Origin: Sulfobacillus thermotolerans
GTDB taxonomy: Bacteria; Bacillota; Sulfobacillia; Sulfobacillales; Sulfobacillaceae
Direction: 5' to 3'
NCBI GenBank assembly: GCA_002951815.1
Contig: CP019454.1
Coordinates: forward strand, 1,922,001-1,986,000
Length of the DNA stretch: 64,000 nucleotides
The translations under genes and the position numbers were made by a program. This document shows positions 21,029 to 32,548 of the stretch, in pieces (position 1 is the first letter of the stretch; each line of letters starts with the position of its first letter). The notes under the pieces were generated by a model, which was not told the origin of the DNA, did not search any database, and saw only the letters and a program-made list of their open reading frames with translations.

Positions 21029-21056
21029 TTGTTATTTTCAGAACGAATGGTATAGT
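21029..21056 (+). promoter_or_regulatory. Candidate promoter of the ilv-leu-pheA operon
   Basis: TTGTTA (21029-21034), a 16-base spacer and TATAGT (21051-21056) lie just before the ykkC-like aptamer, consistent with transcription starting near 21063. Confidence 0.65.
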
Positions 21057-21067
21057 GCTTGTATAAA

Positions 21068-21209
21068 TTCTTAGTCGGAGTGTACCTAGGGATCCGCCCG
21101 TAGCGGTAGGACCAAGCGGTACAGGCTCTTTTCTCAAAAAGGGCTACACCATGGGGATAAAAGACTCGTGGCAGGTTCGGCAGTAACTGAACTTGCTATG
21201 GGTTTTTTT
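21068..21209 (+). promoter_or_regulatory. ykkC-class riboswitch (probably ppGpp type) with its terminator
   Basis: The leader has the hallmark segments of the ykkC superfamily in the right order: CTAGGGATCCG (from 21086), GGACCAAGCGGTAC (from 21109) and, on the 3' side, GGGGATAAAAGACTCGTGG (from 21153). The class includes guanidine, PRPP and ppGpp sensors; upstream of branched-chain amino acid genes the ppGpp subtype is expected from published knowledge. CGTGGCAGGTTC (21167-21178) can pair with GAACTTGCTATG (21189-21200), followed by seven T, a terminator whose 5' arm uses the conserved 3' aptamer strand. Ligand binding should therefore block termination, an ON switch. The ligand assignment is inferred. 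Confidence 0.75.
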
Positions 21210-21220
21210 ATACCTACGGC

Positions 21221-21480
21221 TAGATTTGAGCGATGACGGGGTATCATGGCCTCATTGCCCAGACTACAGCGACTCGAGGATGGTGGAAGCTCGAGGTTTG
21301 GCGAGGTTGTGTGTCTCACCCTTGAGCGCGCTTCCCGAGTCCAGAGTGTTCTGGAGGTAGACGAAGCCGGGTGATGTCGTTAACCATCAACGAGTCCTTT
21401 GGTCTTGCCAAGGGAAAAATAAGGGTGGTACCACGCCAACGCGTCCCTTTTAGCCAATAGCGGCTGAAGGGGTTTTTCTT
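21221..21480 (+). promoter_or_regulatory. T-box leader, probable leucine specifier, with terminator
   Basis: AGGGTGGTACCACG (21422-21435) is the T-box sequence that binds the uncharged tRNA end. Upstream, the Stem I landmark GGTGGAAGC (21282-21290) is followed by GTGTGT-CTC-ACCCTTGAG, placing the specifier codon CTC (leucine) at 21315-21317. The terminator CCCTTTTAGCC (from 21445) pairs with GGCTGAAGGGG with two wobbles and ends in a T run at 21473-21477; the antiterminator uses the same strand. Uncharged tRNA-Leu should let the polymerase read into ilvN-ilvC-leuA. The specifier reading is inferred from position. Confidence 0.9.
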
Positions 21481-21519
21481 TTATTAGCCATTATTTCTAA
21501 GACTTGGGGGGTGTCTCTC

Positions 21520-22059
21520 ATGAATCCATTCATTGGGGTGGAAATGCAGGATAAGCCGGGCGCTATTCAACGTCTTTTGCTGCTTCTTGGACAGCGCAAT
21601 GTTGAAATCGAACAGATGACCATTAAAAAAGACCGAGAGGCTGGTCGGCTCACTGCCATGATTGGCATTGACGCGACGGCTGAAAAAGCGCGGTGGGTAA
21701 TGCGCCAATTGACAAGGCATCAGGACATTGTGCGCACCTTTCTCGCGAAGAACTCTTTTCATACGGTGCTTGTCGCTGCAGGGCCTAAGGATTCTGCTGT
21801 GCGCGATGTCCCAGCGGTCTCTTGTTCACCCATTGACGCGCATGCAGGGTACTACACCGTAGCGGGACCCCGTCACGCCGTGGACACGTGGATTGAAGAA
21901 AACCATGCCCGTGTTTTTGCTCTCTTCCCTAGTTGCTTATCGGGAAAAATCAATGACAAACACGCTCGAACTCAGACTCACCACATTCAAGGAGGATGGA
22001 ATCATGAACGCAAAATTATACTACGACGACAGCGCCGATCTGAGGTGGTTAGCCGATAA
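21520..22059 (+). CDS. ilvN: Acetolactate synthase regulatory (small) subunit-like ACT protein
   Basis: A protein of 179 residues whose N-terminal 75 residues form an ACT domain: [20 protein letters not shown] (from residue 4), then a second strand containing [10 protein letters not shown]. In IlvN this domain binds valine and tunes the catalytic subunit. GGGGG lies 8 bases before ATG 21520; GTG 21511 overlaps that site and is rejected. The frame runs 56 bases into ilvC, and its Arg-rich tail does not resemble IlvN, so a frameshift near 21950 is possible. Being first in the operon and four genes from ilvB is unusual. Confidence 0.75.
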
Positions 22060-23026
22060 GACAGTGGCGATCATTGGCTATGGGAGCCAAGGTCACGCTC
22101 ACGCATTAAATCTGCGCGATTCGGGAGTCAATGTCATCATCGGTATCCGCCCAGGACATTCCCGGGACCGGGCCAACGAACAAGGGTTTCGGACGATGGA
22201 CGTGAAAGATGCCGCACGTGAAGCAGACATTATTCAAATTCTTACACCCGACCATCTCCAAGGACAGTTGTTTGAAGAAGATATTTTGCCTGGCTTAGAG
22301 CCCGGCAACGCCCTAGCGTTTGCTCATGGATTTGCCATTCGGTTCAAGCAGATTATTCCACCGCCTGACGTCGATGTGTTTATGGTGGCTCCCAAGGCTC
22401 CAGGCCATTTGGTTCGCCGACTCTACGTGGAAGGTCAAGGAACTCCTGCGTTGGTGGCGGTTGAACAAGATGCGACAGGACATGCGCTGGATATGGCTCT
22501 GGCGTATGCCAAAGGTATTGGTGCCACGCGAGCCGGCGTTATCCGCACCACATTTGCGGAGGAAACGGAAACGGACTTGTTTGGCGAACAAGCGGTATTG
22601 TGCGGTGGTGTGACCAGTTTGATCCAGGCAGGGTTTGAAACGCTGACGGGCGCGGGCTATCAACCCGAAATTGCTTACTTTGAAACGTTGCACGAACTAA
22701 AACTTATTGTGGACTTGATTTATGAGGGTGGAATGGGCGCCATGTGGTATTCCGTTTCTGATACCGCAGAGTACGGCGGTTTAACCGTCGGTCCCAAAAT
22801 TGTCACCGAGGAAACCAAGCAGGAGATGCAGCGTGTATTGGCGGATATTCAAAATGGTACCTTTGCCGAACGCTGGATTGCGGAAAATCAAGCGGGTCGT
22901 CCCTCGTTTAACCGGATGCGTCAGGCCGCTAAAGAACACAGTGTGGAGGACGTGGGACGCGAATTGCGATCGATGATGTCTTGGTTGAAGCCGTCAGTCG
23001 TTGAACAAGATGGGGTTGGCAAATAA
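22004..23026 (+). CDS. ilvC: Ketol-acid reductoisomerase
   Basis: NADPH-dependent enzyme of 340 residues (class I length) acting in valine and isoleucine synthesis. The Rossmann motif is [17 protein letters not shown] (about 24-40), followed by HGFAIRF and a C-terminal knotted domain with [17 protein letters not shown] (about 188-204), which carries metal-binding acids. ATG 22004 has AAGGAGG at 21989; an in-frame ATG at 21893 would add 37 residues unlike the family. It overlaps the end of the ilvN-like frame. Confidence 0.95.
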
Positions 23027-23041: not shown

Positions 23042-24571
23042 ATGGCCGACACGGTACGCATTTTCGATACGACTTTGCGAGATGGGGAACAGTCGCCGGG
23101 CGTGGCATTGACCGCACAGGAAAAATTGGCCATTGCTGAGCAGCTGGCGCGTTTAGGGGTCGATTATCTGGAAGCAGGTTTTCCACAAGCGTCGGAGGGA
23201 GACTTTGACGCCGTGTCTCGGATTGCCTCTTCCATTCAAGGCCCATCCATAGTGGCGTTGGCCCGTTGCAATCGCCAGGATATTGAACGGGCGGCACAGG
23301 CTCTTGAAAAGGCACAAAACGCGCGCATTCATGTGTTTATCGCGACATCGCCCATTCATATGCAGGCGAAGTTGCGGATGAGCCCCGAAGAGGTGTTGGA
23401 ACGCATCGATGCGATGGTGCGGTTGGCCAAGAGCTATCGTGACGACGTGGAGTTTTCGTGTGAAGACGCAACGCGTTCTCATCATGATTTTCTAATCCGG
23501 GCGGGGCGCATCGCGGTTGCGGCAGGGGCGTCCACCCTGAACTTTCCCGACACGGTCGGCTATACGAGTCCTCGAGAATATTTCCAGTTGATCACGGCCA
23601 TGCGCGAAGCGATTCCTGATCCGGATGTCATCTTGTCTGTACATTGCCATGATGATCTCGGAATGGCCGTCGCTAATACATTAGCAGGCATTGAAGCTGG
23701 TTGTCGGCAAGTGGAGGTGGCCGTTAATGGCATTGGCGAACGGGCGGGGAATGCCTCATTAGAAGAGGTTGTGATGAACCTCACCGCGCGTCAAGACCAA
23801 TATCAAGTCCAACACCACATCAAAACCCAAGAGATTTACCGTGCGAGCCAATTGGTCAGTAAATTAACCGGAATGACTGTACAGCCGAATAAAGCGATTG
23901 TTGGCAAAAATGCCTTTCGTCACGAGTCCGGGATCCACCAAGATGGGATGCTAAAAGACCGGTCGACGTACGAAATCATGACGCCAGAGACGGTTGGCTG
24001 GGGTCTTAGTCGGTTAGTATTAGGCAAGCATTCCGGTCGTCATGCGCTGAGACAGCGCCTTGAGGAATTGGGGCTTACCGCCACGAGCCAGCAAATCGAC
24101 CAAATCCAAGCGCGGATCAAGGAACTGGGTGAGCTGAAGAGCGACATCAATGACCAAGACCTGGAGGCGGTATGGCAAGAGGAAGTGGGGCAAATGCGGC
24201 GTTCTAGGCATACGGAGCTCGTCGCATGGCAGGTTAGTACCGGTAGCCAAAATCACCCGGTGGCCTATGTCAAAGTCCGCGTGGGTCAAGAAACCCGCGA
24301 AGACTCTGGGAGTGGCGATGGTCCGGTCCATGCGCTCTTTCAAGCTTTTTCCCGAGCCTTGGCATTGAATCATGTGGAATTAACCGCTTATCATTTGTCC
24401 CCCATTTCTCCCGGTGAGGCAGGTCTTGCCACGGTGCAGGTGGAGATTAACGGCTATGACTGCGAAACACGAGGGCAGGCGTCGGACAGCGATGTCATGA
24501 AAGCGACAGCGATAGCCTTGCACGAAGCGCTTTCCTATTTATATGAACGCACACAGAACGTCGTGGCTTAA
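23042..24571 (+). CDS. leuA: 2-isopropylmalate synthase
   Basis: Condenses acetyl-CoA and 2-oxoisovalerate, first committed step to leucine. The 509-residue length fits Leu[12 protein letters not shown] (about 9-19), the metal-binding HCHDDLG (about 202-208), and [10 protein letters not shown] (about 236) are in the catalytic barrel. The C-terminal third (from about 385) is the allosteric leucine-binding domain. GGGAGG precedes the ATG, 15 bases after ilvC. Homocitrate or citramalate synthases are unlikely, given leuB next door. Confidence 0.95.
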
Positions 24572-24592: not shown

Positions 24593-25675
24593 ATGGCGAG
24601 TCACCAATTACTAGTGTTGGCTGGAGATGGAATTGGGCCCGAGGTCACGGAGTCTGCATTGAAGATTCTGGAAATTATGGCGAAGCTGGAAGATTGGCAG
24701 GTTGAAGTGGATCATGCCGCGATTGGCGGTGCTGCCATCGACCAATACGGCGATCCGTTTCCGGAGGCGACGCAGCAGGCGATTGACCGGTCTTCTGCTG
24801 TATTGTTGGGAGCGGTTGGAGGACCCAAGTGGGATAACGCGCCAAGGCGTCCAGAGGCAGGGTTGCTCGACATGCGCCAATACATGGGACTGTGGGCTAA
24901 TCTACGACCGTTCGAAATGATTCCCGGTCTCGAGCATTTATCTCCATTACGACATCCTGTGATGAATGGCATTATTTTTCGAGAATTGACAGGTGGCCTT
25001 TACTTTGGGCAGCCACGGGGACGGCGGTTTTTACCAGGAGACTTGGAAGTCATTGATACGCTACAATACCGTAAATCCGAAATGACGCGGATTATACAAT
25101 TGGCTTTTCAATACGCTAAGGACCACGGTTTGACATTGACGTCTGTGGACAAAGCCAATGTATTGGAAAGCTCCCGAGTATGGCGTGAAGTGACGGAAGA
25201 GCTGGCTCGTCAATATCCCGACGTGCCGCTTAGCCACCGATATGTTGATGCTGCAGCTATGGATATGGTACTCAATCCGCAAAATTACCAAGTCGTGGTG
25301 ACGGAAAATCTCTTTGGCGATATTTTAAGTGATTTAGCTGGGGGATTGGTGGGGTCTCTTGGACTTCTTGGTTCCTTGTCTGTGGCCGGAACCCCAGGCA
25401 CGCGTGGACTATTCGAACCTGTTCATGGCTCGGCCCCCGATATTGCTGGACAAAACCGCGCGAATCCCACAGGAGCCATTTTATCCCTCGCATTTCTTGT
25501 CGGATGGAGTTGGCAAGAACACGACGCCGAGCACCTGATTCGCGAGGCTGTGACCCAGACGTTAAGCGAAGGGCCCCGAACCGTTGACTTGGGAGGTCAA
25601 GCCACGACGCAAGAATTCACGGAGGCTGTAGGCAATCGGTTAAAGGACATTTGGCAGAGGAGGAGACAGCAATGA
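24593..25675 (+). CDS. leuB: 3-isopropylmalate dehydrogenase
   Basis: NAD-dependent oxidative decarboxylase of 360 residues in leucine synthesis. GDGIGPEV (about 11-18), the substrate-binding ELTGGLYFGQPRG (about 132-144), LFGDILSDLAGGLVGSLGL (about 240-258) and FEPVHGSAPDIAGQ (about 274-287) are canonical. AAGGAGG precedes the ATG. The stop overlaps the ilvB start by four bases (ATGA). leuC and leuD are not in this operon. Confidence 0.95.
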   Translation: MASHQLLVLAGDGIGPEVTESALKILEIMAKLEDWQVEVDHAAIGGAAIDQYGDPFPEATQQAIDRSSAVLLGAVGGPKWDNAPRRPEAGLLDMRQYMGLWANLRPFEMIPGLEHLSPLRHPVMNGIIFRELTGGLYFGQPRGRRFLPGDLEVIDTLQYRKSEMTRIIQLAFQYAKDHGLTLTSVDKANVLESSRVWREVTEELARQYPDVPLSHRYVDAAAMDMVLNPQNYQVVVTENLFGDILSDLAGGLVGSLGLLGSLSVAGTPGTRGLFEPVHGSAPDIAGQNRANPTGAILSLAFLVGWSWQEHDAEHLIREAVTQTLSEGPRTVDLGGQATTQEFTEAVGNRLKDIWQRRRQQ

Positions 25676-27336
25676 CCGGTGCAGAATTGGCGTGGGAAGT
25701 TTTGTCGAAACTCGGTACAACGGTTGTGTTTGGTGTGCCAGGCGGCGCCATTCTTCCTTTAGTAGACTCGTTAGCAACCCGCAAAGACAACCCCATTGAA
25801 TTTGTGGTGTCTCGTCATGAAGCAGCTTCGATTCACGCGGCCGATGGTTATGCCCGTGTGACCGGAAAACCCGCCATTGCCATGGCGACTTCGGGCCCGG
25901 GAGGGACTAACGTCATTACTGGTCTTGTGACCGCTATGACCGATTCTGTTCCGATTGTTTTGTTGATTGGTCAAGTGCCGACCACCCTCATTGGTACCGA
26001 TGCCTTCCAAGAGGCGGATTTGTTTAATATGACAATGCCTGTGGTAAAACACAGTTGGCGTATTTCGGATCCCAGTCAGGTGGCCGATGTCTTAATTGAG
26101 GCGTATGAGACCGCACGGCGTGGCCGTCCTGGCCCAGTGGTGGTGGAATTTCCTAAGAACATTCAGTTCATGGAGTGCCCGCCGTGGGAATTTCAGCCGA
26201 AGCAAGAAGAACAGGCTGAATGGGATGAGAAGCCCCTGGTGTTGGCGCGTATTAAGTCCTATCTGCGCAACGCGAAACGGCCCTTACTATACATTGGCGG
26301 CGGTGTCGTTTCAAGCGGGACCCAGGAGTATGTGCGTCAAATTGCCGAAACCTATCAATGTCCCGTTGCTCATACTCTGATGGGAGTGGGAGCATTTCCT
26401 AGCACCCATCCATTGGCGCTCGGGATGTTGGGGATGCATGGCACGTGGTATGCGAACAATGCCATTCAAAATGCGGACCTTATTTTAGCCCTTGGAGTGC
26501 GTTTTGACGATCGCGTCACGGGCAAACTGGATGAATTTGCTCCGAATGCTCACATTATCCATGTGGAAGTCGATGCGGCAGAACTGAGTAAATTGGTTCC
26601 GGCAGACATTGCCATTCGTGGAGATCTGCGAACCATTCTACCGAAGTTTGTCGAAATGGTTCCCGCACGCACCAACGAGGAGTGGTGGGCGACCATTAAT
26701 GAATGGAAAAAGGATCATCCCCTGCGTCCCCCTGCGGCTCCTGACGGGAGTATCGCGACGCCCAAGGTGATGGAAATCGTCAATCGCCATCTCCAAGCTG
26801 ACGACATTGTGGTGACGGAGGTTGGTCAACATCAGATGTGGGCCGCTTTATATCTCCGCCGGGAAAAGCCACGGACTTTTCTCACCTCAGGAGGCGCCGG
26901 AACGATGGGTTATGGGTTTCCCGCGGCGATGGGCGCACAGTTTGCTGCTGAAGGGCACCGTGTGGTCCTTCTGGCGGGAGACGGGAGCTTTCAGATGAAT
27001 TTGCAAGAAATGGGCACCGTGGCCCAATACAAGATCCCCATCTGGATGATTGTCCTTAATAATCAGGGACATGGCATGGTACGACAGTGGCAAGACCTTT
27101 TTCATGGCCAACGCCGTATTGGTGTCGACTTGTTGAATCCCGACTTTGTGCGACTGGCACAGTCATTTGGTATCCCAGGCTTTAGTGTGAATTCTGAAGA
27201 GGCCTTGGAAGAAGCCTTACAAACTATGGAGACGATCGAGGGGCCGATTATGCTTGAAGTTCGGGTGCCACAGGATGAACATGTTTTTCCAATGGTCCCG
27301 GCGGGGCAGCCATTATCAATGGTTCTAGAAGGATAA
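25672..27336 (+). CDS. ilvB: Acetolactate synthase catalytic subunit
   Basis: Thiamine-diphosphate enzyme of 554 residues making acetolactate or acetohydroxybutyrate from pyruvate. FGVPGGAILPLVDSL (about 20-34), SRHEAASIHAADGYAR with the catalytic Glu, ATSGPGGTN, and the cofactor motif GDGSFQMNLQEMGT to LNNQGHGMVRQWQDLF (about 436-475) are all present. The last motif reads NQGHG where NQYLG is common. ATG 25672 follows GAGGAGGAGA and overlaps leuB. The regulatory partner is the first gene of the operon. Confidence 0.94.
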   Translation: MTGAELAWEVLSKLGTTVVFGVPGGAILPLVDSLATRKDNPIEFVVSRHEAASIHAADGYARVTGKPAIAMATSGPGGTNVITGLVTAMTDSVPIVLLIGQVPTTLIGTDAFQEADLFNMTMPVVKHSWRISDPSQVADVLIEAYETARRGRPGPVVVEFPKNIQFMECPPWEFQPKQEEQAEWDEKPLVLARIKSYLRNAKRPLLYIGGGVVSSGTQEYVRQIAETYQCPVAHTLMGVGAFPSTHPLALGMLGMHGTWYANNAIQNADLILALGVRFDDRVTGKLDEFAPNAHIIHVEVDAAELSKLVPADIAIRGDLRTILPKFVEMVPARTNEEWWATINEWKKDHPLRPPAAPDGSIATPKVMEIVNRHLQADDIVVTEVGQHQMWAALYLRREKPRTFLTSGGAGTMGYGFPAAMGAQFAAEGHRVVLLAGDGSFQMNLQEMGTVAQYKIPIWMIVLNNQGHGMVRQWQDLFHGQRRIGVDLLNPDFVRLAQSFGIPGFSVNSEEALEEALQTMETIEGPIMLEVRVPQDEHVFPMVPAGQPLSMVLEG

Positions 27337-27373
27337 CAGCATCGTGACGCTTGCAAAACAGGAGGAACATGGG

Positions 27374-28273
27374 ATGGATGAACTAAAGGTCTATTTTAAC
27401 GGAGTAATGGTACCCGGTAGTGAGGCCCGCGTATCCGTGTTTGATCATGGGTTTCTTTATGGGGATGGGATTTTTGAAGGCATTCGGGCATATGAAGGAC
27501 GTGTATTTAAACTCGCCGAGCATCTTGACCGGCTTTACGATTCCGCCAAAAGTATTCTTTTGGAAATTCCTTATACAAAAGAGGAATTATCCGAGGCCGT
27601 GTGCGCTACCGTGCGCGCAAACAATTTGCAAGATGCCTATATTCGCTTAGTTGTTTCACGCGGTAAAGGCGATTTGGGATTAGATCCTAACAAATGTCCT
27701 GTGCCTAGTGTGATTATCATTGCGGACCGGATTGCCCTATATCCGGAAGAGTTGTATCTTAATGGCCTACAACTAGCGTCGGTTTCCACGAGGCGCCCAG
27801 CGACCGATGTGCTTAATCCCTCTATTAAGTCCCTCAATTACCTCAACAACATTCTTGCGAAGATTGAGGCGAACTTGCGCGGGCTACCAGAGGTAGTCTT
27901 ATTGAACCACCAAGGCTACGTGGTGGAGGGTACAGGCGACAATATTTTTATTGTCAAAAATGGCGAGCTCCTGACTCCTCCCGTCTATGCGGGAATTCTT
28001 AACGGCATTACCCGCCAATGCGTTATGGAGTTGGCGCGCGACATGGGGATTCCTTGCCGTGAGCAAAACCTGACCCTGCATGACCTGTACAATGCCGATG
28101 AGTGCTTTTTAACGGGGACAGCTGCAGAAATTGTGCCGGCGGTCGGATGTGATGGGCGTGTGATTGGGGATGGAATGGTTGGTCCAATTACGAAGCAGAC
28201 ACTCGAGGCGTTTAAACGGTATTCCCGTTCGACGGGAGTTCCCGTTTATGATAAAAATGTGGCGACCGCATGA
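27374..28273 (+). CDS. ilvE: Branched-chain amino acid aminotransferase
   Basis: PLP-dependent fold-type IV aminotransferase of 299 residues, the usual IlvE length. VFDHGFLYGDGIFEGIRAY (about 24-42) and the Schiff-base lysine within SIKSLNYLNNILAK (about 150) are typical, as are EGTGDNIFIVKNG and LTGTAAEIVPA near the C terminus. ATG 27374 has AGGAGGA 7 bases before it; an upstream GTG at 27344 is less likely. D-alanine aminotransferase and aminodeoxychorismate lyase share the fold, but the operon supports IlvE. Confidence 0.93.
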   Translation: MDELKVYFNGVMVPGSEARVSVFDHGFLYGDGIFEGIRAYEGRVFKLAEHLDRLYDSAKSILLEIPYTKEELSEAVCATVRANNLQDAYIRLVVSRGKGDLGLDPNKCPVPSVIIIADRIALYPEELYLNGLQLASVSTRRPATDVLNPSIKSLNYLNNILAKIEANLRGLPEVVLLNHQGYVVEGTGDNIFIVKNGELLTPPVYAGILNGITRQCVMELARDMGIPCREQNLTLHDLYNADECFLTGTAAEIVPAVGCDGRVIGDGMVGPITKQTLEAFKRYSRSTGVPVYDKNVATA

Positions 28274-29100
28274 CAGATGTGCCCGTGATTTATTATCAAG
28301 GCTCGCCGGGGGCTTTTAGTGAAGCCGCTATCTTGTCGCATTGGCCGCATGCAAAAGCTAAAGGGTTTGAGACTTTTGCGTTGACATTCCAAGCGCTATT
28401 GGACGACCCCAACGCGGTAGGTCTTCTCCCAATTGAAAATGCCTACCGCGGCCCCGTGTATGATGTGCTGGATTTGTTGACAGCTTCTGCCCCATTATCT
28501 ATTTGGGCGGAAGCTGTCCAGCCCGTCGAGTTAGCGTTGATGGCCTATGGACATCAAGACTTGTCGCGCCTGCGCCGGGTTCGGTCGCATCCCCAAGCGC
28601 TTATGCAAAGTCAAAAATTTTGCCAAGAGCATGGGCTCACGGTCGAAGTGGCCTTAGACACCGCGGGAAGCGCGAAAGAGTTGCTCGAAAATCCCCGGGA
28701 AGATACCGGGGCGATTGCCAGTCCAAGGGCGGCCGAAATATACGGCTTGAGCATTGTCCGTACGGGAATTCAGGACCATCCGGATAACCGGACACGGTTT
28801 TGGCTGCTGAGTCAAAAGCAACTGACTATTGAATCGCCGCTGGGATTAACCAAAACCAGTGGGGTTGTGGATTTGCCAGACGAACCCGGCTCGTTGGTTG
28901 CGTATTTGCAGGAGTTTCAAAAAGCGGGCATCAATTTGTCTAAGGTCGAGTCGCGGCCGAGACCGGGGGCGCCGTTTGCCTATCGGTTTTGGATCGATGC
29001 GGTCGGAACGGTGGATGCATTAAACGCCGCGTGGTCGGCTGGGGCGTCCCACGCGGAGTGGTCTCGCCGTTTTGGCACCTACCCCGTGTTAAGTCAATAA
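28270..29100 (+). CDS. pheA: Prephenate dehydratase
   Basis: Converts prephenate to phenylpyruvate, for phenylalanine. A 276-residue stand-alone PheA: GSPGAFSEAA (about 11-20), PIENAYRGPVYDVLDLL, and the catalytic Thr in NRTRFWLL (about 173-180), then a C-terminal ACT domain with LPDEPGSLVAYLQEF and the Phe-binding ESRPRPG (about 225-231). The ATG overlaps the ilvE stop by four bases. Its presence at the end of a leucine-responsive operon ties aromatic to branched-chain synthesis; IlvE can transaminate phenylpyruvate. Confidence 0.93.
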   Translation: MTDVPVIYYQGSPGAFSEAAILSHWPHAKAKGFETFALTFQALLDDPNAVGLLPIENAYRGPVYDVLDLLTASAPLSIWAEAVQPVELALMAYGHQDLSRLRRVRSHPQALMQSQKFCQEHGLTVEVALDTAGSAKELLENPREDTGAIASPRAAEIYGLSIVRTGIQDHPDNRTRFWLLSQKQLTIESPLGLTKTSGVVDLPDEPGSLVAYLQEFQKAGINLSKVESRPRPGAPFAYRFWIDAVGTVDALNAAWSAGASHAEWSRRFGTYPVLSQ

Positions 29101-29359: not shown

Positions 29360-29401
29360 AGTCTGCAACATCATTCGGCGATGGGTGAATGGAGGAACGT
29401 T

Positions 29402-30472
29402 GTGGGAAAGTCAGAAATGCCAGCAATGGGAAAAATTTCTCCGGAAGTGTTTCGGGACTATGTTTATCCCAATTTGGGACAAGACCGGCCTGAAGTGTTG
29501 GTTGGACCGCGTTCAGGCGTGGACATTGCGATTACTCGGGTCGCTCCGGGAACCGTAATGGCGACGACGACCGATCCGGTTTTTATAGTGCCGGCTTATG
29601 GATGGGAACGGGCGGCTTGGTTTGCCGTTCATATTCTGGCGTCGGATGCGGCTACGTCTGGACTGCCGCCCTCGTTAATGACGGTTGACTTAAATCTCCC
29701 CCTTACCATTACTACGCAAGATTTTCAAAAGCTCTGGGAAGCCTTTGCTAAAACATGTCAATCATTGGGCATTGCTGTCGTGTCAGGCCATACCGCGCGT
29801 TACGAAGGTTGCGATTTCCCTATGGTGGGAGGGGCCACTGTGATGAGTATTGGCCCGGAAGATCGCTACGTCACGACGGCCATGGCTGAGGTTGGTGATC
29901 TGTTGCTATGTACCAAAGGCGCAGCCATTGAAACAACCGGTCTAATGGCTGCAACATTTCCTGATTATATCCGTCAGCATCTGGGGCATGATCTCTGGGC
30001 ACGGGCCGATGCGCTATTTGATGAGATGACTGTCGTAACAGATGCCTTAACAGCGGCTGCACAAGGGGTTCGGTCCCAGGGCGTGACGGCGATGCATGAT
30101 GCCACCGAATGCGGGGTTGTGGGTGGCGTGTATGAGATTGCCGAAGCCTCAGGGCTAGGCGTAGTGATGCGTGACGAGGCGGTGATTGTGCGGGAAGAGA
30201 CCAAAGCCATTTGCGATCTGACCGGCATCGACCCTCTCATTGCCATTAGCGAGGGCACCTTGTTGCTAACGGTCAAACCCCATGCGGTGGATAAAGTGAT
30301 GCGGGCATTAAAGGCGCAAGGCATTGACGTGTCAGTCATTGGGGAAATGCGTCCAGCGTCTGAGGGCATGTGGCGGGAGGCTCATGGGCGACGGATGCCC
30401 TTGGTACATCCGCGCATTGATCCGTTTTGGGCGGCGTTTGGCGCTTTGGCCGCCGGGAGATCGCCCAAATGA
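29402..30472 (+). CDS. AIR synthase-related protein (HypE/ThiL-like fold)
   Basis: A 356-residue protein of the PurM/HypE/ThiL/SelD superfamily. RSGVDIAITRVAPG and TTDPVFIVP in the N-terminal half fit the ATP-binding part; TKGAAIETTGLMAA and AMHDATECGVVGGVYEIAEASGLG (two adjoining segments) fit the second domain. The cysteine or selenocysteine segment of SelD is absent. GTG 29402 has GGAGGA at 29391; ATG 29381 lies before that site. It overlaps thiD and heads a thiamine operon, so it may be a ThiL-like kinase or an AIR-related enzyme, an inference. The exact reaction cannot be read. Confidence 0.65.
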   Translation: MGKSEMPAMGKISPEVFRDYVYPNLGQDRPEVLVGPRSGVDIAITRVAPGTVMATTTDPVFIVPAYGWERAAWFAVHILASDAATSGLPPSLMTVDLNLPLTITTQDFQKLWEAFAKTCQSLGIAVVSGHTARYEGCDFPMVGGATVMSIGPEDRYVTTAMAEVGDLLLCTKGAAIETTGLMAATFPDYIRQHLGHDLWARADALFDEMTVVTDALTAAAQGVRSQGVTAMHDATECGVVGGVYEIAEASGLGVVMRDEAVIVREETKAICDLTGIDPLIAISEGTLLLTVKPHAVDKVMRALKAQGIDVSVIGEMRPASEGMWREAHGRRMPLVHPRIDPFWAAFGALAAGRSPK

Positions 30473-31266
30473 TGGCGAGAGCTTTGACGATTGCAGGATC
30501 GGATTCGGGGGGCGGGGCTGGCATTCAGGCTGACCTGAAAACCTTTATGGCATTTTCTGTTTTTGGAATGTCGGCGATTACTGCCATCACCGTGCAAAAC
30601 ACGGTTGGTGTTGAACGTGTCCAAGCGTTGGATCCCGAAGTCGTGGGGGCGCAAATCGACGCCGTCACTCGGGACTTGGGTACAGATGCTATCAAGATTG
30701 GCATGTTGTTTTCGAAGCCCATCATTGAGGTAGTCGCAGAGCGGCTACGCCAATGGCCTGGCATTCCTGTCGTCCTTGATCCCGTGATGCGCGCCAAAGG
30801 AGGGGCACCCCTTCTCGATCCTGGCGCGGAAAAGGCTTTGCGTGATGTACTGTTGCCCCTTGCCACCGTCGTGACTCCCAACTTGCCAGAAGCCTCGGCG
30901 TTAGTGGGATTTCCTGTGCAAACCCGTGCCGATATGCAAAAGGCTGCGCATGTTCTAGAGAATTTGGGGGTCCCCTTTGTGTTGGTCAAAGGCGGTCATT
31001 TGGCGGACGAAGAGGCGGTGGATTTATTGCTACATGAGGGCCGGGAAACATGGCTATCGGCTCCGCGAATCGAGACCTTGCATACACATGGCACGGGCTG
31101 TACCCTATCAAGTGCGATTGCCGCAGGCTTGGCGCGTCACGACAATATCGAGCAGGCGATTTCGACTGCCAAGGAGTATGTTACGCAAGCCATTCGTCAT
31201 GCTCCGGGGCTTGGGCACGGACATGGGCCATTGCTTCACCACTGGGGGCAATCGCCATGGATTTAA
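30469..31266 (+). CDS. thiD: Hydroxymethylpyrimidine (phosphate) kinase
   Basis: Phosphorylates the thiamine pyrimidine. A 265-residue ribokinase-fold protein with AGSDSGGGAGIQADLK (about 8-23), VLDPVMRAKGG (about 102-112), and the anion-hole and catalytic Asp-like segment THGTGCTLSSAIAAGLA (about 206-222). The ATG at 30469 or 30472 overlaps the preceding stop, with GGGAG upstream. The next gene, thiE, starts inside its last codons. Confidence 0.93.
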   Translation: MMARALTIAGSDSGGGAGIQADLKTFMAFSVFGMSAITAITVQNTVGVERVQALDPEVVGAQIDAVTRDLGTDAIKIGMLFSKPIIEVVAERLRQWPGIPVVLDPVMRAKGGAPLLDPGAEKALRDVLLPLATVVTPNLPEASALVGFPVQTRADMQKAAHVLENLGVPFVLVKGGHLADEEAVDLLLHEGRETWLSAPRIETLHTHGTGCTLSSAIAAGLARHDNIEQAISTAKEYVTQAIRHAPGLGHGHGPLLHHWGQSPWI

Positions 31267-31868
31267 GTTTGCACGTTTTGGTGGACCCGTTTGCCTTGTC
31301 TGAAGAATCCTTACGGAGTGGCGTGCAAGCCATCGCTCTGGGAGGGGCGACGGTCGTGCAAATGCGCAGCAAAGACCGGTCAACACGCGAGTTAATAGAC
31401 GGTGGGCGCATGCTCAAGGCATTATGTCAGAAGTATGGGTTGGCGTTTATCGTCAATGATCGGGTCGATGTGGCTTTAGCGTTAGGAGCCGATGGGGTTC
31501 ATGTGGGGCAAGACGACATGCCCGTCTCCATGGTGAGAACGTTAGCGTCGCAGTTGACGGTCGGGTTATCCGTCAGTTCGCTACAAGAAGTGTTGGCGGC
31601 TGAGGCTAGTCCCCCGGACTATTTTGGTATGGGGCCCGTCTTTGCGACGGCATCAAAATCTGATGCTGGCCCGGCTGTGGGCACAAGTAAGCTTCGAGAA
31701 TGGACTAGGGTCGCACAGGCCATGGCACCGGTTGTGGCCATTGGAGGCATTAGCTTGGAGAATGCAGGGGCGGTGTGGCAGTGCGGGGTTAACGGGATTG
31801 CCGTCATCTCTGCTGTCTGGCAAGCAGCGGACAAACAAGAAGCGTGCCGCAGATTAAGAGAGCACTAA
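31257..31868 (+). CDS. thiE: Thiamine-phosphate synthase
   Basis: Joins the pyrimidine diphosphate and thiazole phosphate. A 203-residue TIM barrel with VVQMRSKDRSTREL (about 30-43), VNDRVDVALALGADGVHVGQ (about 64-83), GMGPVFATASKSDAGPA (about 122-138) and AIGGI (about 160). ATG 31257 lies 8 bases after GGGGG and overlaps the thiD end by ten bases; the longer in-frame extension runs antisense to family expectation and is rejected. TenI is a close relative, but the catalytic phosphate-binding residues here fit ThiE. Confidence 0.88.
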   Translation: MDLSLHVLVDPFALSEESLRSGVQAIALGGATVVQMRSKDRSTRELIDGGRMLKALCQKYGLAFIVNDRVDVALALGADGVHVGQDDMPVSMVRTLASQLTVGLSVSSLQEVLAAEASPPDYFGMGPVFATASKSDAGPAVGTSKLREWTRVAQAMAPVVAIGGISLENAGAVWQCGVNGIAVISAVWQAADKQEACRRLREH

Positions 31869-31885
31869 TAAAGGGGTGAAGACCC

Positions 31886-32548
31886 ATGACGATGGTAAAC
31901 CGATTAAAAGATTCGGCTACGGATCAATGGCAGCAGTTGATTCACCACCCATTTGTCGCCGGAATCGGGGAGGGCACCGTGTCACATCGGCAGTTTGGGT
32001 ATTTTTTGACGCAAGATGCTCTTTATCTAGGGGATTTTTTGTCCACACTCGCCGTTGCCGCGTCGCGTGCTCCAAGACGGGAATGGACAGAAACGCTCTT
32101 GCGCCACGCGGAGAATGTGACGACTGTGGAAACGGCGCTCCATGCTTCGCTGTTGCCAGCATTTGGCGTGTCGGCCGCGGATCTGGGCAGGGCAGTGCCT
32201 GGTTTAGCGACCATCGCATATACGGACCATTTGGTGCGAACGGCGTGGAGCCGCACCTGGCCGGCAACGATGGCGGCGGTCTTGCCGTGCTACCTCAGCT
32301 ATCAAGAAATCGGCATTCATCTCAAGGCGCATTACCATTCGCCTGACCCGCTCTATCAACAGTGGATTGAGACGTATGCGGGAGATGAGTACGGCCAAGC
32401 GGTCGAGGAACTATTGGCCATTGTGAACGCGATGGCGGTTGATGAAGCAGATTGGCCGCAGGTGCAGAACGTATTTGAACGGTCCGTAGGATATGAATAT
32501 CTATTTTGGAGTCAAGCGGCCACCGAGGGACATCTTATCGACCGTTAG
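31886..32548 (+). CDS. tenA: TenA family aminopyrimidine aminohydrolase (thiaminase II)
   Basis: Salvages the thiamine pyrimidine from degraded thiamine. An all-helical 220-residue protein with the TenA pattern: HHPFVAGIGEGTVSHRQFGYF (two adjoining pieces, from residue 20), DALYLGDF, the LPCYLSYQEIG segment with a conserved cysteine (about 133), and AGDEYG. A final FWSQAATEGH segment carries the usual late aromatic and Glu. AAGGGGTGA precedes the ATG. It ends the thiamine operon and meets a convergent gene one base later. Confidence 0.88.
   Translation: MTMVNRLKDSATDQWQQLIHHPFVAGIGEGTVSHRQFGYFLTQDALYLGDFLSTLAVAASRAPRREWTETLLRHAENVTTVETALHASLLPAFGVSAADLGRAVPGLATIAYTDHLVRTAWSRTWPATMAAVLPCYLSYQEIGIHLKAHYHSPDPLYQQWIETYAGDEYGQAVEELLAIVNAMAVDEADWPQVQNVFERSVGYEYLFWSQAATEGHLIDR

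Follow-up and report, generated by a model that had tools for sequence, protein, structure and literature searches.

What controls transcription of the branched-chain amino acid operon of Sulfobacillus thermotolerans, and how many signals does its leader RNA read? The genome of this organism is one contig of 3,317,203 bp, and the stretch analysed here (the window, 64,000 nucleotides, positions 1,922,001-1,986,000) contains a leader of about 460 bases between a promoter-like site and the genes ACT-ilvC-leuA-leuB-ilvB-ilvE-pheA, all on the same strand according to a reading of the sequence and to gene matches (Table 1). Our analysis indicates that this leader very probably controls this single operon through two switches in series, a ppGpp riboswitch and then a leucine T-box, with one terminator apiece. 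The promoter-like site TTGTTA-16-TATAGT is found at the identical position in the other six complete genomes of the genus. Scanning the window with Rfam at default settings yielded tRNAs only; the matches to the aptamer and to the T-box (21072-21451) are both under their gathering scores, so that default annotation would miss the entire leader. In the genome as a whole, just 3 of 13 T-box matches are at or above the RF00230 cut-off. The sub-threshold RF00442 and RF00230 matches in the leader are real elements.

Table 1. Positions of the leader elements and operon genes within the window.
Feature	Position	Strand	Basis
Promoter-like site TTGTTA-16-TATAGT (extended -10, TG)	21029-21056	+	consensus scan
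ykkC subtype-2a (ppGpp-class) aptamer, predicted	21072-21182	+	RF00442 match, MFE fold, covariation, class residues
Aptamer helix P0	21074-21079/21176-21181	+	
Aptamer helix P1	21081-21086/21118-21123	+	
Aptamer helix P2	21124-21145	+	
Aptamer helix P3	21149-21155/21165-21171	+	
Terminator 1, long hairpin, 5' half = 3' strand of P3 and P0, ends in U7	21159-21209	+	folds, hairpin/U-tract search
T-box leader (stems I-III and antiterminator)	21224-21451	+	RF00230, full length
Specifier codon CUC (leucine)	21315-21317	+	RF00230 alignment
T-box core AGGGTGGTACCACG and antiterminator (AGGG...CCCU)	21422-21448	+	RF00230 alignment, direct sequence reading
Terminator 2 of T-box, CCCTTTTAGCC-loop-GGCTGAAGGGG then TTTTTCTTTT	21445-21482	+	terminator scan, fold
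ACT-domain protein, probable divergent acetolactate synthase small subunit (ilvN-like)	21520-22059	+	weak ACT/IlvN matches
ilvC, ketol-acid reductoisomerase	22007-23026	+	NCBIfam
leuA, 2-isopropylmalate synthase	23042-24571	+	NCBIfam
leuB, 3-isopropylmalate dehydrogenase	24593-25675	+	NCBIfam
ilvB, acetolactate synthase large subunit	25651-27336	+	NCBIfam
ilvE, branched-chain aminotransferase	27344-28273	+	NCBIfam
pheA, prephenate dehydratase (4-base overlap with ilvE)	28270-29100	+	Pfam PF00800

A preliminary description of this DNA had placed a ykkC-class aptamer at the start of the leader, and a covariance-model search bears this out: the Guanidine-I model (RF00442), the sole Rfam ykkC model to match here, aligns over its full length at 21075-21176 with 36.0 bits (E 8.3e-5; gathering score 63). 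Folded alone, 21073-21182 adopts a minimum free energy structure of -39.8 kcal/mol with P0, P1, P1b, P2 and P3, the complete four-way-junction architecture, and contains the ykkC core, i.e. P1 with CUAGGG.UCC...GG.CC.AG, P2, and P3 with ACACC and a GAUAAAAG-type loop. When 24 aptamers from relatives were aligned and scored on the published architecture, pairing was seen in 96.6% of cells and both sides had changed in 10 of 32 pairs; because the scored structure was partly derived from these same sequences, which biases the percentage towards it, the both-side changes are the stronger evidence. Pairing falls to 26-48% when the partner strand is slid by 1-3 columns. The P0 helix is 90.3% paired in this alignment, with changes on both sides in four of its six pairs. 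A covariance model built from the aligned aptamers and searched against 398 genomes of the phylum finds matches in 220 of them.

The second half of the leader had been read as a complete leucine T-box followed by a second terminator, which is what we find at 21224-21482. RF00230 matches over its full length with 71.4 bits (E 1.7e-15; gathering score 93), and the features of a leucine T-box are all there: stem I with its specifier loop, the T-box sequence and the antiterminator/terminator pair, the terminator hairpin occupying 21445-21472 ahead of the tail. The specifier CUC was recovered by pattern search in 19 of 20 relatives, the twentieth, S. acidophilus, having CTCGGCCC, and a tRNA-Leu(GAG) that matches CUC is encoded in the S. 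thermotolerans genome. The rule used to read the specifier was checked on other T-boxes of the same genome, where it gives CUC for leuS, UUC for pheS, AUG for metG, ACC for thrS, GUC for valS, CCC for proB and UGG for trpE; agreement between rule and gene is less clear for the T-boxes of ileS and of the DAHP synthase gene.

Terminator 1 is a 22-bp hairpin that starts within the loop of P3 and has a run of seven U at its end. As the preliminary description proposed, it is built from the 3' side of the aptamer, and since the closed aptamer and the terminator both use the 3' strands of P3 and P0, the two structures are mutually exclusive. The terminator scan missed this hairpin, probably owing to its stem rules, and it was found by folding combined with a U-tract search. 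It is present in all seven leaders of the genus, at -23 to -31 kcal/mol and with a U-tract. The leader in its terminator form has a calculated energy of -54.9 kcal/mol, versus -39.8 kcal/mol for the closed aptamer folded alone, which suggests that ligand should be needed to hold the aptamer closed.

These structures suggest how the leader would work. Known ppGpp riboswitches are ON switches in which transcription terminates without ligand (PMC6031431, PMC10687018), and the scheme that we infer for the window agrees with the mechanism measured for another member of the class (PMC10687018). In the absence of ppGpp, terminator 1 would capture the aptamer's 3' strand and transcription would stop near 21209, while bound ppGpp would hold P0 and P3 closed and let the polymerase continue. 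The polymerase would then meet the T-box and stop near 21475-21480; only if uncharged tRNA-Leu(GAG) paired with the CUC specifier and stabilized the antiterminator, which competes with terminator 2, would it read on. Each element thus has a separate expression platform, and a series of two ON switches is expected to behave as an AND gate, as published for such arrangements (PMC9481103, PMC5912903), so that full expression in the cell would require both signals. S. thermotolerans encodes Rel, and the ppGpp signal can therefore be made; it also encodes CodY, which may act on the operon in addition.

The genes downstream are those of branched-chain amino acid synthesis, as had been claimed, with ilvC, leuA, leuB, ilvB and ilvE all recognised by NCBIfam models; ilvD is located elsewhere in the genome, outside the operon. 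The identification of the first gene as ilvN stands in part: its product of 179 residues has a weak ACT-domain match and is not a canonical IlvN, and TIGR00119 has no match anywhere in the S. thermotolerans genome, but the acetolactate synthase small subunit seems its likeliest role. The gene overlaps ilvC by about 50 bases and is found in the same place in relatives. After pheA and a gap of 280 bases, the window continues at 29381-32548 with an AIR-synthase-like gene, thiD, thiE and tenA, an order repeated in several relatives.

The tandem of aptamer then T-box, together with the operon, is conserved in all 20 relatives that were read, S. acidophilus DSM 10332 among them. ilvC comes next in 20 of 20, followed by the remaining operon genes as far as the contigs reach; the exceptions are L057, where no ACT gene was detected, and L059, where leuA was not. 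pheA belongs to the operon in the genus of the window and in genera g2, g3 and g11, i.e. in four of the six genera read, and is not part of it in g5 and g6. The gene order being family-wide, the ilvN-first arrangement and the extension to pheA, which the preliminary description had thought unusual, are better seen as lineage traits. The LeuA match covers about 380 residues in seven relatives (L053, L054, L057 and L061-L064), versus about 505 in the genus of the window, a shortfall that would fit a C-terminal regulatory domain that is lost or too divergent to match.

An alternative to two independent switches is that the aptamer and the T-box are coupled, the one affecting the folding of the other, in which case the logic would depart from a simple AND. 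Terminator 1 is present in 14 of the 21 family leaders, including all seven of the genus; in the other seven (L051, L052, L055, L056, L058, L059 and L060), the U-tract is lost or the hairpin is absent and the aptamer residues are kept, which means that the two-terminator scheme is not obligatory in the family. The survival of an intact aptamer in these relatives speaks for coupling, as does the leader L051, where the terminator 1 hairpin is missing and the aptamer adjoins the T-box directly. Against it, the strength of terminator 1 in the window and throughout the genus is what separate platforms predict, and no conserved pairing between aptamer and T-box was identified. We therefore regard coupling as a distinctly unlikely account of the window leader and retain the reading as two separate switches, while the leaders that lack terminator 1 may either be losing the aptamer or using it in another way. 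A second hairpin stands where the U-tract would be in six leaders from two genera (L022, L052, L055, L056, L058 and L060). A helix between the spacer and stem I (CCUACA/UGUAGG), noticed by eye in leaders without terminator 1, was dropped since it breaks in L060. It is conceivable, if rather improbable, that some tandems of the family have shed terminator 1 and kept the ppGpp aptamer under selection, acting through the T-box and a single terminator as a coupled gate, the window being the two-terminator form. Leaders that have terminator 1 and leaders that lack it thus occur side by side in the family, a natural set in which the AND gate can be tested, and the leaders without it, rather than that of the window, are the most worth testing.

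The preliminary description had supposed, conditionally, that the first switch senses ppGpp, and this assignment is supported by residue rules, gene context and kinship with S. acidophilus. In the ykkC fold, residue 49 is A in guanidine-I aptamers and a pyrimidine in PRPP and ppGpp aptamers, the latter two are set apart from guanidine-I by the P0 helix, which guanidine-I lacks, residue 96 is G in PRPP aptamers and either absent or any of A, C and U in ppGpp aptamers, and C75 pairs with the guanine of ppGpp (PMC6031431). The window aptamer has C49 and C75, both invariant in 24 of 24 aligned aptamers, none of which has G96. Residues 95-96 are missing altogether, which makes it a variant of the ppGpp class and counts somewhat against our interpretation. 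The branched-chain genes that follow are as expected of the ppGpp class, which precedes branched-chain or glutamate genes.

A PRPP riboswitch (subtype 2b) would have the identical fold and P0 helix, the two classes being chiefly one residue apart (PMC6031431), and that residue could be checked in a sample of the phylum. Among 86 loci read, 65 leaders were compared, 38 before purine and 27 before branched-chain genes, with the downstream genes assigned through sequence clustering and profile searches of representatives. G96 is found in 37 of the 38 leaders before purB, purC, purE or purine permease genes, the remaining one (L150) being a parse artefact whose sequence CCCAGGCGG also has G, and is missing from 26 of the 27 before ilvE, ilvB, ilvD, leuA or branched-chain binding-protein genes (p = 7e-16 for the split over the 65 leaders). 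A T-box lies alongside 10 of 40 leaders without G96, versus 1 of 46 with it. With G96 missing from all 21 family leaders, and branched-chain instead of purine genes downstream in the window, a PRPP switch is highly improbable. The exception to the residue-96 rule, L097 (1501-1619, before ilvB and with a leucine T-box), has an aptamer with G96 (CCCAGGCGG) and a weak U-tract after the aptamer hairpin, and could be either a ppGpp switch in decay or a tandem of a PRPP aptamer with a T-box. A guanidine-I riboswitch, the label used for T-box tandems before ilv and leu genes in a 2025 survey (PMC12452182) and that of the Rfam model matching here, has a negligible chance of being correct, given C49 in place of the expected A, a P0 helix that is present and covarying, an RF00442 score of 36 versus a cut-off of 63, and downstream genes that are biosynthetic and not for guanidine efflux. 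The first switch thus very probably belongs to the ppGpp class (ykkC subtype 2a), and micromolar binding of ppGpp that relieves termination, as expected of this class and known from S. acidophilus (binding) and from other members, is predicted for the window RNA.

The specifier-reading rule applied outside the family yields tandems of a ppGpp-type aptamer with a T-box of isoleucine specifier AUC before ilvE, with the T-box first in L096, L110, L113, L117 and L134 and the aptamer first in L102 and L108, these AUC readings including RF00230 alignments examined for L113, L117 and L134 only; the published table of tandems lists T-box(Leu) only (PMC9481103). Where T-box/'guanidine' tandems precede ilv and leu genes, the 2025 survey takes them to sense guanidine (PMC12452182); the residue test argues that these are ppGpp switches, so that the leaders labelled 'guanidine' by Rfam before such genes are better read in this way. 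This ppGpp reading, the isoleucine-specifier tandems and the leaders without terminator 1 may be new. In the family as a whole, a single leader RNA would read both a global starvation signal and a signal specific to one amino acid.

How does this leader compare with known systems? An AND gate made of a ppGpp/T-box(Leu) tandem was reportedly described by Sherlock et al. in 2018. The preliminary description had held such tandems to be known in principle, which understates the matter: they are published with counts, as presumed AND gates, with 15 cases in the order ppGpp then T-box (PMC9481103, Table 2). The window tandem has the same elements, order, class of target genes and separate terminators as these, shows no essential difference from them with its operon order ACT-ilvC-leuA-leuB-ilvB-ilvE-pheA, and belongs to this already published design. 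A close characterised relative is the ppGpp riboswitch of S. acidophilus DSM 10332, crystallised with ppGpp (PDB 6DMC and 6DME). In the genome that we took as this strain (G011), on the basis of a plasmid that matches CP003180.1 at 100% identity over 6 kb, there is a sole aptamer-model match, upstream of a T-box and ACT-ilvC-leuA-leuB-ilvB-ilvE, and we infer from this that the crystallised RNA comes from the tandem leader. The two aptamers are 76% identical, and the ligand-contact residues that were checked are the same except for residue 104, which is A in S. acidophilus and G in the window; the S. acidophilus operon lacks the pheA that is present in the window. The guanine/PRPP riboswitch (PMC5912903) likewise joins two tandem aptamers, of which one has the ykkC fold, but these share a single terminator and follow IMPLY logic, whereas each element of the window has its own. 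The ilv-leu operon of B. subtilis also has a leucine T-box upstream, in a genome that encodes CodY, but its leader is without the ppGpp aptamer (PMC12452182 and established knowledge) that the S. thermotolerans leader places ahead of the T-box.
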